64,000 bases of DNA from the NCBI GenBank assembly GCA_021298815.1, contig JAJTHE010000008.1, forward strand, positions 16,105-80,104, in the 5' to 3' direction. The translations under genes and the position numbers were made by a program. The DNA comes from Betaproteobacteria bacterium. Its GTDB lineage: Bacteria > Pseudomonadota > Gammaproteobacteria > Burkholderiales > CAIKXV01. Below are positions 6,628 to 45,804 of the stretch, piece by piece; within the stretch, counting starts at the first letter, position 1, and each line of letters begins with the position of its first letter. Under the pieces are notes generated by a model. It ran no database searches, had not been told where the DNA came from, and saw nothing but the letters and a program-made list of their open reading frames with translations.

Positions 6628-7596
6628 ATGACGAAGGTTCTTTTCCTTGCGGCGAGCTGTTTCTCCATCCTGGTCCCGGGCCTCGCAGCGGCGCAGGAGT
6701 ATCCCGCGCGTCCGATCCGGGTCGCGATCCCTTTTCCGCCGGGCGGCACTTCGGACATCCTGACCCGCGTCATCGGCCAGAAGCTGTCCACGTCGATGGG
6801 CCAGCCGCTCGTGATCGACAACCGGCCGGGCGCAGGCGGGGTGATCGCGACCGACATCGTCGCCAAGGCGAATCCGGATGGCTACACGCTTTACATGGCG
6901 TTCGTCAGCCATGCGATCAACCCGTACGTCTACGCGAAGCTGCCCTACGACACCGAACGCGACTTCACGCCGATCGCGATGTTCGCGGTGTCCCCGAACG
7001 TCGTGGTGGTCACGCCGTCGCTGCCGATCAAGTCGATCAAGGACATGATCGCTTTCGCCAGGGCGAAGCCCGGGCAGTTCAACTATGCGTCGTCCGGGAC
7101 CGGCACCAACTCGCATCTTTCGGCGGAGATGATCGGCGCGATGGCCGGCATCAAGATGAGCCACGTGCCGTACAAGGGCGGGCCGCAGGCCAATGCCGAT
7201 GTCGCGAGCGGTGCGGTGCAGATGCACATCCCGTCGATGCCGGTGACCATGCCGCTGATCAGCACCGGCCGCCTGCGCGCGATCGCGGTGACCAGCCTCA
7301 AGCGCTCGCCGGTGCTGCCCGACGTGCCGACGGTGGCCGAGACGCTGCCCGGCTACGAATCGCTGGCCTGGTACGGGTTCATCGGCCCGAGGGGCATGCC
7401 GGCGGCGGTCGTCGCGCGGCTCGATGGCGAGGTCCAGAAGGCGTTGGCGCAGCCCGACCTGATCGAGTCGTTCTCGAAGCAGGGCGCCGATCCGGTGCAC
7501 ATGGGGCCGAAGGCGTTCGCCGGCTTCATCCGCGAAGAGCTCAAGCGCTGGAGCATGGCGGTGAAGGCTGCCGGCCTGCAACCCGGGAATCTGTAA
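6628..7596 (+). CDS. Bug/TctC family substrate-binding protein
   Basis: YPARPIRVAIPFPPGGTSDILTR, NPDGYTLYM, HVPYKGGPQANAD. Confidence 0.93.
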   Translation: MTKVLFLAASCFSILVPGLAAAQEYPARPIRVAIPFPPGGTSDILTRVIGQKLSTSMGQPLVIDNRPGAGGVIATDIVAKANPDGYTLYMAFVSHAINPYVYAKLPYDTERDFTPIAMFAVSPNVVVVTPSLPIKSIKDMIAFARAKPGQFNYASSGTGTNSHLSAEMIGAMAGIKMSHVPYKGGPQANADVASGAVQMHIPSMPVTMPLISTGRLRAIAVTSLKRSPVLPDVPTVAETLPGYESLAWYGFIGPRGMPAAVVARLDGEVQKALAQPDLIESFSKQGADPVHMGPKAFAGFIREELKRWSMAVKAAGLQPGNL

Positions 7597-16499: not shown

Positions 16500-17540
16500 A
16501 TGCACCCGCGCGGATCCACCCTGCTGTCGTCCATCGTTCCTGCAGTCGTCCCGACGGTCGCGCCTTCGGTCGTGCTGCCTTGCGTGCTCGGCTGCGTGCT
16601 CGGCTGCGCCGGCGCGCTCGCCGCGCGGGCCGCCCATGCGCAGGCCTGGCCGGCGAAGCCGCTGCGCATCGTCGTGCCGTTCCCGCCTGGCGGCCCGAAC
16701 GACATCATCGGCCGGCTGGTCGGGCAGAAGCTCGCCGAGGCCTTCGGCCAGCCGGTGGTCGCCGACAACCGTGCCGGCGCGGGGGGAAGCATCGGCTCGC
16801 TCGCGGTGGCCAAGTCGCCGCCCGATGGCTACACCCTGCTCTCCGGCGGCATGGGAAACCTGGTGATGAACCCGATCATCGACAAGGTGCCCTACGACAC
16901 GCTGCGCGACTTCGCGCCGGTGAGCCTGGTCGCCAGCGCACCGAACGTGCTGGTCGTGCATCCGTCGCTGCCGGCGAAGGACGTGAAGTCGCTGCTCGCG
17001 CTCGCGCGGTCGCGCCCGGGCGAACTCAACTACGGCTCGGGCGGCGTAGGCAGCACGCCGCACCTGTCCGGCGCGCTGTTCAACGTGCTCGGCAAGGTGA
17101 ACCTTGCCCATGTGCCGTACAAGGGCAATGCGCCGGCACTGACCGACCTGCTCGGCGGGCATGTGCAGGCCGCCTTCCTCGGCATACCGGCCGCGCAGCC
17201 GCCGGTGGCTTCCGGCCGGCTGCGTGCGCTGGCGGTGACCGGCAGCGCGCGCTCCCGGGCACTGCCGCAGGTGCCGACGGTCGCCGAGTCCGGGCTGCCG
17301 TCCTACGAGCTGAGCCCGTGGTACGGCATCCTCGCGCCGGCAGGCACCCCGGCCGATGTCGTGGCGCGGCTGAACGAGACCATCAACCGCTCGATGCGAG
17401 AGCCGGACATGGTCGAGCGGCTGGCCGCGCTGGGCGCCGAACCCGAGTCGATGTCGGCGGCCGAGTATGCGGCGCGCATCCGCGCGGACATCGAGAAATG
17501 GACGCGCGTGATCCGGGCGGCGAACATCCGCGCCGAGTGA
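16500..17540 (+). CDS. Bug/TctC family substrate-binding protein
   Basis: WPAKPLRIVVPFPPGGPNDIIGR, PPDGYTLLSG, HVPYKGNAPALTD. Confidence 0.93.
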   Translation: MHPRGSTLLSSIVPAVVPTVAPSVVLPCVLGCVLGCAGALAARAAHAQAWPAKPLRIVVPFPPGGPNDIIGRLVGQKLAEAFGQPVVADNRAGAGGSIGSLAVAKSPPDGYTLLSGGMGNLVMNPIIDKVPYDTLRDFAPVSLVASAPNVLVVHPSLPAKDVKSLLALARSRPGELNYGSGGVGSTPHLSGALFNVLGKVNLAHVPYKGNAPALTDLLGGHVQAAFLGIPAAQPPVASGRLRALAVTGSARSRALPQVPTVAESGLPSYELSPWYGILAPAGTPADVVARLNETINRSMREPDMVERLAALGAEPESMSAAEYAARIRADIEKWTRVIRAANIRAE

Positions 17541-39694: not shown

Positions 39695-40743
39695 TGGCCG
39701 CGGGCGGGGACACGGGTGACCGGCTGCTGCGGCACTGGTATGCGTTGTGCCGCAGCCGCGACCTTGGCCATCGTGCGCCGCTGCCGGTGCGCCTGTTCGG
39801 ACGGCGGCTGGTCGCGTTCCGTGGCGAGGGCGGCCGACCGGCCGCGCTGCACGACCGCTGCGTGCATCGGCAGGCGCCGCTGTCGGCGGGACGCGTCTGC
39901 GCAGCGCGGCTGCAGTGCCCGTACCACGGCTGGGCGTACGACGGCAGCGGCCGCGTGGTGCAGGTGCCGGCGCTCGGGCCGGGGCAGGTACCGGAGGGCC
40001 TGCGCGTCGCGTCGCTGCCCTGCGTCGAACAGGACGGCCTGGTGTGGACGTGGCCGGGCGAGGGCGAGCCCGATCGTCCGCCGCCACGGGTGCCGACCTG
40101 CGACGAACCCGGGTGGACGCGGTTCATCATGAAGACCCGGTTCCGCGGCACGGTCGAAGCCTGCCTCGAGAACTTCCTCGACTGTCCGCATGCCACCTTC
40201 GTGCACCGCGGCTGGTTCCGTTCGCCTACCGGCGTGCCGGTGACCGCACGGGTCACGTCGCTGCCCGACGGCGCGCAGGCCGAGTACTTCGGCGAGCCGC
40301 GCCGGCGCAGCGTGATCTGGGCGATGTTCTCGCCCCCGGGCGGCACCATGCAGCATGTCGACCGCTTCATCGCGCCGGCGACCAGCCGTGTCGACTACGT
40401 GTTCCCGAACGGCCTCGCCTACAACATCACGTCCACCTGCAGCCCGGTCGAGGGCGATGCCATCGAGGTGTACACGGTGATGTCGTTCCGCTTCCGCGGA
40501 CTCGGGCCGCTGGTACGCCTGTTCTTCGAGCCGCTGTCGCGCTGGATCATCCGCCAGGACGTGCGCATGCTCGACCGGGTCGCCGACAACCGCGCCGCGG
40601 ACGCGGCCGCCGGCGCGCCGCCCGCGCGCAGCACCGAGGCCGACCTGCTCGGTGAATCGATCTGGCGCTGGCGCGCCGCCCTCGCGCGCGGCGAACCGCC
40701 GCCGGCGGCCGGGGCGGTACGCGACGTGCGGCTGGTGCTGTGA
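39694..40743 (+). CDS. Rieske [2Fe-2S] oxygenase alpha subunit-like
   Basis: Rieske CVHRQAPLSAGRVCAARLQCPYHGWAYDGSG; mononuclear Fe motif ENFLDCPHATFVH. Confidence 0.9.
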   Translation: MAAGGDTGDRLLRHWYALCRSRDLGHRAPLPVRLFGRRLVAFRGEGGRPAALHDRCVHRQAPLSAGRVCAARLQCPYHGWAYDGSGRVVQVPALGPGQVPEGLRVASLPCVEQDGLVWTWPGEGEPDRPPPRVPTCDEPGWTRFIMKTRFRGTVEACLENFLDCPHATFVHRGWFRSPTGVPVTARVTSLPDGAQAEYFGEPRRRSVIWAMFSPPGGTMQHVDRFIAPATSRVDYVFPNGLAYNITSTCSPVEGDAIEVYTVMSFRFRGLGPLVRLFFEPLSRWIIRQDVRMLDRVADNRAADAAAGAPPARSTEADLLGESIWRWRAALARGEPPPAAGAVRDVRLVL

Positions 40744-41465
40744 CGACGCTCGCGGCGCGGGTGGTGCGCGTGCCGGCGCTGGACCCGGCACTGGTCGATC
40801 CCATGTACCGGCTGTACGCGGCCCACTACGATGCCTGCGACCCGGTGCGCTTCCGCAGCGACCTCGCCGGCAAGGACCATGTGATCCTGCTGGAGGACGA
40901 CGGACGGCTGTGCGGCTTCTCGACCGCGGTCGACCATCCGTTCGAATGGAAGGGCACGCGGCTGCGGGTGCTGTTCTCCGGCGACACCATCATCGATCGC
41001 AGTGCCTGGGGACAGCAGGCACTGAGCCGTGCGTTCGCCCGGCTCGCCGGCGCACTGCATGCGCGCGAGCCCGCGGTGCCGCTGTACTGGCTGCTGATCT
41101 CCAAGGGCCACCGCACCTATCGCTACCTCAGCGTGTTCGCGCGCCGGTTCTTCCCGCATCCGTCCGGCGACGACGAGGACCTGCTGCCGCTCGCCGGCGC
41201 GATCGCGGCGGCACGCTTCGGGGCGGACTTCGATCCGGCGCGCGGCGTGGTGGCCTTCCCGCGCTCGCTCGGGCAACTCAAGCCCGAGCTCGCCGACGTG
41301 CCGTCGCGGCTGTCCAGGCGGCCGGAGGTCGCGTTCTTCCTGCAGCGCAACCCGGGCTATCGCAGCGGCGACGAGCTGGTCTGCCTGACCCGGCTCGACC
41401 CGGACAACCTGCGCGCGCTGGTGCGCGCCGCCTTCCTGGCGGGCATGGCCGATGGGCTGGACTGA
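40740..41465 (+). CDS. GNAT-like acyltransferase (candidate)
   Basis: DPMYRLYAAHYDA...HVILLEDDGRLCGFSTAVDHPF...WLLISKGHRTYRYLSVFARRFFPHP; GTG start overlaps Rieske gene stop. Confidence 0.6.
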   Translation: MTTLAARVVRVPALDPALVDPMYRLYAAHYDACDPVRFRSDLAGKDHVILLEDDGRLCGFSTAVDHPFEWKGTRLRVLFSGDTIIDRSAWGQQALSRAFARLAGALHAREPAVPLYWLLISKGHRTYRYLSVFARRFFPHPSGDDEDLLPLAGAIAAARFGADFDPARGVVAFPRSLGQLKPELADVPSRLSRRPEVAFFLQRNPGYRSGDELVCLTRLDPDNLRALVRAAFLAGMADGLD

Positions 41466-43122
41466 ACTCGCCGCCGCGGTCGCGGGCGCACGCGACCGCT
41501 TCGCGCGGCAGGCGGCCTGTCCGGCGCAGGCGCAGCAGGCGCTGCTGCAGTCCATCCTGTCGCGCCATCGCGGCAGCCGCTTTGCCCTGGACCACGGCTT
41601 CGAGCGCCTGCTCGCGCGCTGCGCGGCACCGGCATCGACGCTGCACGAGGGGCTCGCGGCCTGGCGGGACGCAGTGCCACCGGCCGACCACGCAGGCGTC
41701 GCACCGGCGATCGACGCGATGGCTGCCGGCGCGCAGCGCGTGCTGGTCGACGAGCCGGTGGTCGCGTTCGAGCGCACCGGCGGCAGCACCGGCGGAGCGA
41801 AGCTCGTTCCGCTGACCGCGAGCGGGCTCGACCTGCTCCGGCAGGGACTGTTCGCCTGGATCGACGACCTGTGCCTGCACCGGCCCGGCGCGATGCAGGG
41901 CACGAGCTACTGGTCGATCAGCCCGGCGGCGCGCGCACCGGGCCAGACCGACGGCGGCGTGCCGATCGGGCTCGCCTCGGACGCCGAGTACTTCGGCGAT
42001 GCCGCTGCCGCGATCGGTGCGATGCTGTGCGTGCCGTCAGCGATCGGGTCCGTCGCGGACATCGGCGCATGGCGCAGCGCGACCCTGCGCTGCCTGCTCG
42101 CCGATGCACGGCTGTCGCTGGTGTCGGTATGGAGCCCGACGTTCTGGACCGAACTGTGCCGGCATGCGGTGGAACAGCGCGAACGGCTGGTCGATGCGAT
42201 CGCGCGCGGGGACTGGCCGGTGCCGGCGCCAGGTTCGCCGGCCGATGCCGTCGACGAAGCGTTCGGCGCTGCATTCGGCGATGCGCTGCCCGCGCCGCGC
42301 CCGGACCCGGCGCGCGCGCGGGTGGTCGATGCGGCGCTGCGCGCGCCGCAGCCCGACTGGGCGCGCGTCTGGCCGCGGCTGGCGCTCCTGTCCTGCTGGA
42401 CCCATGGCAGCGCGGCGGCCTGGGTGCCCGGCCTGGCCGCCGCCTTCCCGGGCGTGGAGATCCAGGGCAAGGGGCTGCTGGCGACCGAAGCGATCGTGTC
42501 GGTGCCGCTGTGCGACGGCGGCGATCCGGTCGCGGCGGTCGGCTCGACGGTGATCGAGTTCGAGGACGACGCAGGCCGCTGCTTCAACTGCCACGAGGTG
42601 GCGCAGGGCGGCGAGTACGCCGTGCTGGTCACCACCTCCGCCGGGCTGTACCGCTACCGGCTCGGCGACCGGGTGCAGGTCACCGGCCACTGGCAGCACG
42701 CGCCGCGGCTGCGCCTGCTCGGCCGCGGTGCGGCGTCGAGCGACCTGTGCGGCGAGAAGCTCGACGAAGCCTTCGTGCTCGGCTGTGCCCGGGCGCTGCC
42801 GGTCGGGGCGATGCGCCTGGTGCCGGTGCGCTACCCGGCGCGGCACTACCGGCTGGTGCTCGATGCCGCCGAGTGCGGCGAGGCCGAGGCGGGGCGCATC
42901 GCGCAGCGGCTGGATGAACGGCTGTCGGTGAACCCGCAGTATGCGTATGCGCGCCGGATCGGCCAGCTCGGTGCGATCGTCGCCTGCCGTGTCGACCGGC
43001 TCGCCGCGCGCCTGCAGGCGCTGGCACTGATGAACGGACAGCGGCTCGGCGATGCCAAGCCCGGCGCGCTCGGACGCATCGACGAACCCGACCTGCAGGC
43101 GGTCGAACGGGTGGCGCCATGA
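41452..43122 (+). CDS. GH3 family acyl-acid amido synthetase-like protein
   Basis: FERTGGSTGGAKLVPLT (ATP/AMP motif), QGTSYWSISPAAR, GKGLLATEAIVSVPL, GLYRYRLGDRVQVTGH, LCGEKLDEAFV. Confidence 0.88.
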   Translation: MGWTELAAAVAGARDRFARQAACPAQAQQALLQSILSRHRGSRFALDHGFERLLARCAAPASTLHEGLAAWRDAVPPADHAGVAPAIDAMAAGAQRVLVDEPVVAFERTGGSTGGAKLVPLTASGLDLLRQGLFAWIDDLCLHRPGAMQGTSYWSISPAARAPGQTDGGVPIGLASDAEYFGDAAAAIGAMLCVPSAIGSVADIGAWRSATLRCLLADARLSLVSVWSPTFWTELCRHAVEQRERLVDAIARGDWPVPAPGSPADAVDEAFGAAFGDALPAPRPDPARARVVDAALRAPQPDWARVWPRLALLSCWTHGSAAAWVPGLAAAFPGVEIQGKGLLATEAIVSVPLCDGGDPVAAVGSTVIEFEDDAGRCFNCHEVAQGGEYAVLVTTSAGLYRYRLGDRVQVTGHWQHAPRLRLLGRGAASSDLCGEKLDEAFVLGCARALPVGAMRLVPVRYPARHYRLVLDAAECGEAEAGRIAQRLDERLSVNPQYAYARRIGQLGAIVACRVDRLAARLQALALMNGQRLGDAKPGALGRIDEPDLQAVERVAP

Positions 43123-44207
43123 GCCGTTACCGGTTCGAGCCGGCGGTCGCGGCCGACGATGCCGCGCTGCGCGCGCGCATGGCGGCCGACTGGCTGCGGG
43201 GTTCGCTGTCGGTGAGCTTCCGGCGCGAGCCTTCGTACTTCGCCGGCTGCGTGCTGCAGGGCGAGCAGGTACAGGTGCACAAGTGCGTCGACACCGCCAG
43301 CGGCGAACTGGTCGGCATGGGTGCGCGGCTCGCCACCCGGCTGTGCATCAACGGCGAGTGGCGGCGAGTGGGGCTGCTGTCGGACCTGCGCCTCGCGGCC
43401 CATGCCCGTGGCGGCACGCTGGTCGCGCGCGGCTATCGCGTGCTGCGCACCCTGCACGAGGGCGATCCGGTCGACTTCTACGTCACCGTCATCCTTGACG
43501 GCAACCGGACGGCGATCGGCTCGATTGCCAGCGGCCGGGCAGGGCTGCCGACCTATCGCGATTTCGGCCGGATGCTGAGTCCTGCGATCCCCCTCGACTG
43601 GCCGAAGCCGGCACTGGCGCTGCCGGGCATCTGCTTGCGGCGCGCCGCGACCGGCGAGGAGGGGGCCGTGCTCGAACTGCTTGCCGCGGCCGCGCCACGC
43701 CGGCAGTTCACCCGCGACTGGTCGACGCTGTCGCCCGGACTCTCGATCACCGATTTCTTCGTGGCCGAGCGCGGGAGCCGGCTGGTCGCATGCGTCGCTG
43801 CCTGGGACCAGCATGCCCTGCGCCAGACCTTCATCGAGGCCTATTCGCCGGCCCTGGCGGCCCTGCGGCCCTTCTACAACGCAGCGGCCCGACTGCTGCC
43901 GCTGAAGCCGCTGCCCGCGCCCGGCACACGCATCCCGTACGTGTACCTCGCCGCGGTCGCGGTGCTCGACGACGACCTCGCGCTCTGGCGTGCACTGCTG
44001 CGCCATGCCTACCGAGAGCTGCGGCATGGACCCTGGCACCACGCGATCGTCTCGCTGCACGAGGACGATCCGCTGGCGGCCGCGCTCGCCGACTACCGCG
44101 CGATCCGGGCGGCCGGACGCGTCTACGTGGTCCACTACGGCGACGGCGCGGCGGCGGTGGCCGCGCTCGACCGCCGGATTCCCTGCCTCGACCTCTCGCG
44201 CATATGA
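43119..44207 (+). CDS. GNAT family acyltransferase-like protein
   Basis: RREPSYFAGCVLQGEQVQVHKCVDTASGELVGMGARLATRLCINGEWRRVGLLSDLRLAAHARGGTLVARGYRVLRTLH. Confidence 0.7.
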   Translation: MSRYRFEPAVAADDAALRARMAADWLRGSLSVSFRREPSYFAGCVLQGEQVQVHKCVDTASGELVGMGARLATRLCINGEWRRVGLLSDLRLAAHARGGTLVARGYRVLRTLHEGDPVDFYVTVILDGNRTAIGSIASGRAGLPTYRDFGRMLSPAIPLDWPKPALALPGICLRRAATGEEGAVLELLAAAAPRRQFTRDWSTLSPGLSITDFFVAERGSRLVACVAAWDQHALRQTFIEAYSPALAALRPFYNAAARLLPLKPLPAPGTRIPYVYLAAVAVLDDDLALWRALLRHAYRELRHGPWHHAIVSLHEDDPLAAALADYRAIRAAGRVYVVHYGDGAAAVAALDRRIPCLDLSRI

Positions 44208-45187
44208 ATGCGACTCCGTTCGCCCGGCGCGCCGACATCCCGCCTGCACTGCTGCAGCCGGCGCGGCTATCCGGATTGCTGCGGGCCGCCTGTGCGGACT
44301 GGGCCGTGATCCTCGCCTGCTGGGCGACGATGTACGCCGGGCCGCAGGCGCTGTGGCCGCTTTGCATGGTGCTGGTCGCCGGCCGCATGCATGCGCTGGG
44401 CGTGGTGCTGCACGACGCCTGCCACCTGAAACGGGCGCCACCCACGGCTGCGTCGCACCTGCTGGAGCTGCTCGCCGGCTACCCGATCACCTCGACCCTG
44501 CCGGCGATGCGCTACCACCACCTGCGCCACCATCGGCACAGCGGCATGGCGCTCGATCCGTACTTGAAGCCGGGCGCTTCGCACCGCTTCTGGCCTGCGC
44601 TGCTCTGCCGGCTGCGCGGCCCGGTGATGGTGCTCGCCTGGTTCGTGCGCGGCTTCTTCGGCTGCGCCGCGCTGGCGTGGCCGCGGCTGCGCAACGCCTA
44701 CGGCCGGATCTTCTTCGGCGAACGCAGCGACGTCGACCTCACCCGGCATCCGGAGATCGCACGCTGCCTGCGCGCCGAACCCGGCCAGGCGCTGTTCTTC
44801 CTGGCGCTGGTGCCGGTGGCGCTGCTGCTGCCGCAGGCCGTCCTGTACGGATACCTGCTGCCGCTGATGCTGGCCGGCCTGTTCAACGCCAACCGGGTGG
44901 TCGCCGAGCACCTGCATGTACGCACGACCGACCGTGACCCGTCTACCCTCGTCGCCACCACCCGAACCCACGACTGGGGACTGGCCGGGCGGCTGTTCCT
45001 GTACCCGCGAAACATCGGCTTCCATGTCGCGCACCACCTGCATCCGACGGTGGCGATGCAGAACCTGCCGGCGCTCGACGCCTGGTACCGGGCGAACGAG
45101 CCGGGCTATCGCGCGCCGGCGGCGATCGAATCTATACTCATGCAGAGGCTCGCTGCCGGCACGACCGATGACGGGGCCGCATCCTGA
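44204..45187 (+). CDS. Fatty acid desaturase family protein (desaturase B of cluster)
   Basis: His boxes HDACH, HHLRHHRHSG, HVAHHLHP; TM segments; ATGA overlap with previous gene. Confidence 0.9.
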   Translation: MNATPFARRADIPPALLQPARLSGLLRAACADWAVILACWATMYAGPQALWPLCMVLVAGRMHALGVVLHDACHLKRAPPTAASHLLELLAGYPITSTLPAMRYHHLRHHRHSGMALDPYLKPGASHRFWPALLCRLRGPVMVLAWFVRGFFGCAALAWPRLRNAYGRIFFGERSDVDLTRHPEIARCLRAEPGQALFFLALVPVALLLPQAVLYGYLLPLMLAGLFNANRVVAEHLHVRTTDRDPSTLVATTRTHDWGLAGRLFLYPRNIGFHVAHHLHPTVAMQNLPALDAWYRANEPGYRAPAAIESILMQRLAAGTTDDGAAS

Positions 45188-45198
45188 GGAGGAAAGGC

Positions 45199-45804
45199 AT
45201 GGCACGCATCCGTTACCTGCATCCGGAAGACGTCGACGACCCCGAGATGAAGCGATGGCTGGTCGAGGCCATCGACACCGGCAAGCCCGGCCCGGAGAAC
45301 CAGGCGATCCGCGCGCACAACAAGGTCGTGATGCGCTCGTTCACCTCGCTGGTCCGCACCATGCGAGAAGAGGGCGTGCTGCCGCAGGAACTGCGCGAGC
45401 TGATGCGCGCGCGCATCGCCACCTCCTGGGGCCGGATGTTCGCCACCGACTGCCATTACTGAGGGAACATGAACACCGCACAGTTCGTGCGGGTCCCCGG
45501 CCACCGGATGGCGCTGCTCGATGGCGAGCAGTCCTACCTGCAGTCCGACCAGTTCACCGACCGCGAGAAGGTCGCGCTGCGCTACTGCGACGCGATCATC
45601 GGCAACCCGCTGCACGCGGACGACGCGATGTGGGCCGAGCTGCACCGACACTTCACCGAGCCCGAGCTGGTCGAACTCGGCCATTACATCGGCTTCATGT
45701 CGGGCGGCCAGCGCTGGCTGCTCACCCTGCACGTACAGCATGGCGAGCTGGCGGAATCGATGTGCGCGCGGGCCGCCGCCGAGGCGGGAAAGTCCGGGAT
45801 CTGA
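45199..45804 (+). CDS. Carboxymuconolactone decarboxylase/AhpD-like protein read through in-frame TGA (candidate selenoprotein, CxxU)
   Basis: Two ORFs in the same frame: ...LRELMRARIATSWGRMFATDCHY-[TGA 45460-45462]-GNMNTAQF...FTDREKVALRYCDAIIG...HFTEPELVELGHYIGF; together one CMD-family protein with TGA at the second Cys of CxxC. Confidence 0.6.
45463..45497 (+). promoter_or_regulatory. Putative bacterial SECIS-like hairpin immediately 3' of TGA
   Basis: GGGA...CCGCAC-AGTTC-GTGCGG-G-TCCC: 6-bp apical stem, 5-nt loop with G at position 2, 4-bp basal stem; loop starts 20 nt after TGA. Confidence 0.45.

Follow-up and report, generated by a model that had tools for sequence, protein, structure and literature searches.

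The analysed window, a DNA stretch of 64,000 nt, contains two adjacent open reading frames on the plus strand, 45199-45462 (87 aa) and 45469-45804 (111 aa), which raise the question whether they represent two genes or a single gene with a TGA that is read as selenocysteine (Sec). The original prediction had joined them into one protein with the TGA at the second redox cysteine of an AhpD-like motif. Direct reading of the sequence revealed one common frame from 45199 to 45801 with TGA 45460-45462 as sole interruption and a second TGA (45802-45804) as terminal stop, and the one-protein reading is borne out. The read-through product comprises 201 aa and carries the motif C85-H-Y-U88 in the context DCHY-U-GNMN. 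A Shine-Dalgarno sequence AGGAGG (45187-45192) is situated 6 nt upstream of the first ATG, with purine-rich GGAG-type sites at the equivalent place in relatives. Based on computed gene structure, conservation, covariation of a SECIS hairpin, Sec machinery and fold, we assign a probability of approximately 95% to the reading that 45199-45804 is one AhpD-like selenoprotein gene whose internal TGA encodes Sec.

A search that covered 60 related genomes as well as a species-wide collection of genomes yielded 12 distinct CHYU genes of 75-92% identity, which occur in the same genus and in other lineages, including one contig that carries the label Acidimicrobiaceae. These homologues match over the whole length, and the codon in question is TGA in 12 out of 12 and TAA, TAG or a Cys codon in none. 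The copies were assembled independently in MAGs of differing sites and lineages, with TGA, frame and flanks identical. In addition, TGA was observed in all 14 paralogues at 43-55% identity; the paralogue family within the genus shows 52-55% identity and the motif C-A/G/R-Y-U-S-N-Q. When 399 genomes of the order were searched, 21 matches at E<=1e-30 were obtained, each of them with a TGA. In homologues of approximately 35% identity with continuous frames, the U88 column is occupied by Cys (CEYC/CEFC). Both profile and single-sequence comparison align U88 with the second Cys of AhpD PA0269 of P. aeruginosa (CAYC) and of the debrominase Bmp8, and Cys85 (codon 45451-45453) matches the first Cys of both proteins. 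An alignment across the TGA thus gives U in the CHYU clade and the paralogues and C in distant homologues, and the TGA is located at exactly the second redox Cys, as had been proposed. Comparison of the window gene with its relatives gave dN values of 0.06-0.20 before and 0.03-0.15 after the TGA at a much larger dS; therefore both halves are selected as protein.

The CHYU genes group in a single clade of a maximum-likelihood tree (SH-aLRT 99), which is composed of Sec members only; this tree is a quick build with some long branches and its deeper nodes are uncertain. No Cys version of the exact CHYU subfamily was found in a phylum-wide search, and a plasmid search returned distant Cys homologues only. 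As far as these sequences indicate, Sec/Cys exchange is visible between subfamilies only. A natural adjacent Cys/Sec comparison is given by locus L066, a tandem pair of a Cys homologue (CEFC, 847-1365) and, directly after it, a Sec homologue (CTYU, 1501-2058).

Immediately downstream of the TGA, a SECIS hairpin is predicted at 45476-45492, with the stem CCGCAC/GTGCGG and the loop AGTTC. Across 21 aligned sequences 98.4% of the cells are paired in the hairpin, and three of the six stem pairs show two-sided compensatory changes, e.g., C-G/U-A/A-U and A-U/G-C/C-G. The covariation score was reached in 0 of 500 shuffles, and sliding the partner destroys the signal. The loop GU (G-T at 45483-45484) is unchanged in 21 of 21 sequences; its G, the 21st nucleotide after the TGA, is invariant although it occupies the third position of codons for Gln, Arg or Pro. 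Synonymous codon identity in the CHYU genes peaks at codons +5 to +10 (0.89 compared to 0.57 overall), and a GCA codon within this stretch is fixed in 9 out of 9. In E. coli fdhF, the loop likewise contains a GU about 20 nt after the UGA. Comparable SECIS-like hairpins follow 11 of the 1148 TGA triplets of the window (approximately 1%). Position and loop G of the hairpin are in agreement with published properties of bacterial SECIS elements, namely a distance of 16-37 nt from the UGA (PMC10778597) and a G in a small apical loop (PMC1088965). The Rfam scan at the locus gave no match, to which little weight is attached since Rfam may hold no bacterial SECIS model.

All of selA, selB, selC (tRNA-Sec) and selD, for which the original prediction had proposed a search, were found in the genome that harbors the window. 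The tRNA-Sec scores 72.9 bits and has the anticodon UCA according to ARAGORN, and selB, selA and selD score 408.8, 580 and 410.5 bits, respectively. The tRNA-Sec, selB and selA genes are adjacent on contig C23 and selD is located on C170, i.e., on contigs other than that of the window gene. This genome is a MAG (88% complete, 4% contaminated). Among same-genus genomes, selA above the cut-off and a strong tRNA-Sec were each observed in 9 of 10, and due to this genus-wide agreement on sel genes a binning artefact is unlikely. Six of the seven genomes holding homologue loci contain selA; the exception is the genome of L046, which has the CHYU gene and for which no completeness is given. The selD gene (L072, G000:C170:77386-78324) itself carries an in-frame TGA in the context GGG-U-GC, and SelD is, judging from this context, probably a selenoprotein as well. 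A second match to the tRNA-Sec model on C170 (49.3 bits) scores far below the C23 gene, probably represents another tRNA and was set aside.

Three other readings of the TGA were considered against these data. Termination at the TGA with renewed initiation at ATG 45469, followed by assembly of both halves, would be suggested by the presence of this ATG three codons past the TGA in the CHYU genes and of a GAGGG just upstream of it in most of them. However, the Met (codon 45469-45471) belongs to the usual AhpD motif CxYCxxMH (PA0269: CAYCVNMHA), paralogues with the same TGA have no ATG there, and the GAGGG is spaced only about 4 nt from the ATG and is missing in L047. On motif, paralogue and spacing evidence, reinitiation was rejected as very improbable; it would also leave the covarying hairpin and the full Sec system unexplained. 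The ATG could nevertheless be mis-called as the start of a separate gene. Relatives with two separately organized proteins were not found: the second half lacks a proper ribosome site and the Cys homologues are continuous.

The TGA is a single change away from TGC or TGT, as would be expected for a recent nonsense mutation, a pseudogene or an assembly error, but such an origin is hardly credible in view of the recurrence of this TGA in 12 copies that stem from different assemblies and in 14 paralogues, of the purifying selection downstream of it and of the SECIS covariation. The same minimal credence is given to a general reassignment of TGA in the lineage, e.g., to Trp or Gly. Several genes of the genome are open across a TGA, which such a reassignment would explain, but the internal TGAs examined are situated at Sec/Cys redox positions, ordinary genes end with TGA (e.g., the desaturase gene at 45185-45187 and the window gene at 45802-45804), and the genome encodes a tRNA-Sec whose anticodon is UCA.

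AhpD-like CxxU selenoproteins are established and have been known since 2005 (PMC1088965, PMC2398784, PMC9312934, PMC13188914), which confirms the premise that AhpD-like proteins belong to the known bacterial selenoprotein families. In the members described from the Sargasso Sea and GOS selenoproteomes (COG2128/YciW, TIGR01926), Sec likewise occupies the second CxxC position and a bacterial SECIS element is located just downstream. The window protein differs from the TIGR01926 type by a score below the cut-off (22.5 versus 81.8 bits), by Asn at the position of the relay His and by an insertion of six residues just upstream of the CxxU motif (W77-A82, 45427-45444), which is specific to the subfamily. 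The best curated model, NF053654 (GroundWater_YciW, YciW-related (seleno)protein, NCBIfam), aligns with residues 1-173 (E=2.9e-12), yet its 46.7 bits compared to a cut-off of 310 clearly indicate another branch. The Pfam CMD model (PF02627) does not match the window protein, whereas the CAYU paralogue passes it with 28.2 (gathering cut-off 23). Since AhpD-like CxxU proteins are established, but the cut-offs of TIGR01926, NF053654 and Pfam CMD are not reached, the clade of predicted CHYU selenoproteins is a new subfamily of an already known type.

An AlphaFold2 model based on 23 sequences is all-helical with a pLDDT of 82.1. The top Foldseek matches are Bmp8, Atu0492 and AhpD core proteins (probability 1.00, TM 0.57-0.68 on query length), PA0269 is likewise among the best PDB matches, and the predicted fold of the window protein is AhpD-like. 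Regarding the suggested CMD/AhpD family, the assignment to the AhpD/CMD fold is retained, supported by homologues, by the profile search and by the predicted fold; a formal Pfam CMD membership is not. Bmp8 (6OHI, 6OHJ), the CMYC of which aligns with CHYU, is the best PDB match by single sequence (E=0.0014) as well as by fold; it is a Cys enzyme with a known bromopyrrole ligand and shares approximately 20% identity with the window protein. PA0269 (2O4D, 7XW1; PMC3141380) resembles the window protein in its CxYC aligned with CHYU, the all-helical fold and the presence of the relay Tyr and of a Glu, the latter displaced in the window protein, but has Cys instead of Sec. The CAYU/CGYU paralogues of the genus (e.g., L033 on G000:C117) share approximately 50% identity, CxxU with TGA, the SECIS design and a nearby related TctC gene with the CHYU proteins, from which they differ by the absence of the six-residue insertion and by Gly at the relay His position.

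The proton relay of PA0269 and M. tuberculosis AhpD consists of Glu, Cys, Tyr/His, Cys and His, the last of which, four residues past the second Cys, is invariant among the structures compared (PMC3141380). Apart from the active-site pair Cys85 and Sec88 of the CxxU motif, Tyr87 and, at a shifted position, Glu67 are present in the window protein. His55 of PA0269 corresponds to Asn92; Asn occurs in 11 of the 12 CHYU members and His in L047 only. The invariant Glu is located 18 residues before the first Cys (19 in L048) compared to 12 in PA0269 and the paralogues, a shift explained by the six-residue insertion. The selenolate may make the relay base dispensable, or the reaction may differ from that of AhpD. 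Since conservation does not extend to the relay His, peroxidase activity of the AhpD type should not be taken for granted.

For the window protein, we infer Sec insertion itself, the catalytic cycle and the substrate class as follows. Translation would start at 45199, and SelB-GTP-Sec-tRNA(Sec) bound to the hairpin 45476-45492 would insert Sec at UGA 45460-45462 rather than permit termination. The product would be an all-helical redox protein of AhpD fold with Cys85 and Sec88 as active pair, Sec88 standing where the CxxC of AhpD has its second Cys. Its selenolate would attack an oxidized substrate, be it a peroxide, a disulfide or another reducible electrophile; resolution by Cys85 would then yield a selenenylsulfide, from which a dithiol donor of the cell would regenerate the reduced enzyme. 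The relay His may be dispensable because a selenol ionizes readily. AhpD-type selenol/thiol redox chemistry is most likely, and we lean somewhat toward peroxide/disulfide chemistry of the AhpD type as opposed to another reduction.

The genomic context bears on an alternative function of the same selenoprotein, i.e., a substrate-specific reduction such as reductive dehalogenation, as in the case of Bmp8, with substrate uptake aided by a TctC-type binding protein. In six relatives, a TctC-type receptor gene adjoins the CHYU gene in divergent orientation. The genome harboring the window shows a very large expansion of TctC receptors with at least 150 matches at E<=1e-50, 11 of which are located in the window (e.g., 16551-17537 and 6700-7581). 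Among the at least 150 matches listed, the two closest to the receptor of the relatives flank the CAYU paralogue (L033, G000:C117:27084-27647), which has the TGA and the same SECIS design. This adjacency is a weak hint at a link to small-molecule uptake and, together with the rank of Bmp8 among PDB matches, speaks for Bmp8-like chemistry. However, the window protein and Bmp8 share only about 20% identity, general AhpD structures score about equally in Foldseek, the profile search favors PA0269, and the window gene itself has no TctC neighbor, while TctC genes are so numerous that adjacency means little. We therefore consider such a function possible but unlikely. With yet more reserve, one may speculate that the CHYU clade represents a Sec-obligate enzyme of AhpD fold that converts an imported organic molecule of small size instead of peroxides, possibly in a reductive dehalogenase-like manner, that it is served by a dedicated TctC-type receptor and that it dropped the relay His since a selenolate needs no general base.

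In place of a TctC gene, a fatty acid desaturase gene (44204-45187, same strand) is located directly upstream of the window gene, its stop codon TGA 45185-45187 lying 11 nt before the start codon. It terminates a run of same-strand ORFs (39800-45187) which also includes a gene for a GH3-family enzyme (41452-43119) and of which the tested parts were not found beside homologues; perhaps this run is an inserted biosynthetic cluster. The desaturase was rejected as functional partner, since homologues are accompanied neither by its gene nor by the GNAT/GH3 genes that precede it.

Two further AhpD/CMD-like genes of the genome have an in-frame TGA at GCHYU-MAHNAGG, L070 (G000:C132:181579-181971, plus strand) and L071 (G000:C153:60308-60592, minus strand), and on the basis of this motif probably encode selenoproteins of another AhpD branch. 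Altogether, this genome contains four or more genes for AhpD-like CxxU selenoproteins. AhpD-like CSYU genes with a TGA also occur in two other families of the order (L073 on G020:C19 and L074 on G012:C5). Each of them adjoins a homologue without CxxC and has a tRNA-Sec on its contig, in G012 also selA, which places both near sel genes.

Due to the fact that gene callers split the CHYU protein into two ORFs, the whole clade is likely absent from databases. Its members add to the AhpD proteins a Sec-only branch that scores below every curated cut-off tested, in a host belonging to an uncultured genus, several relatives of which are labelled Betaproteobacteria. In this clade, Sec coincides with loss of the relay His, a case in which the replacement of an active-site base by selenium can be put to the test.
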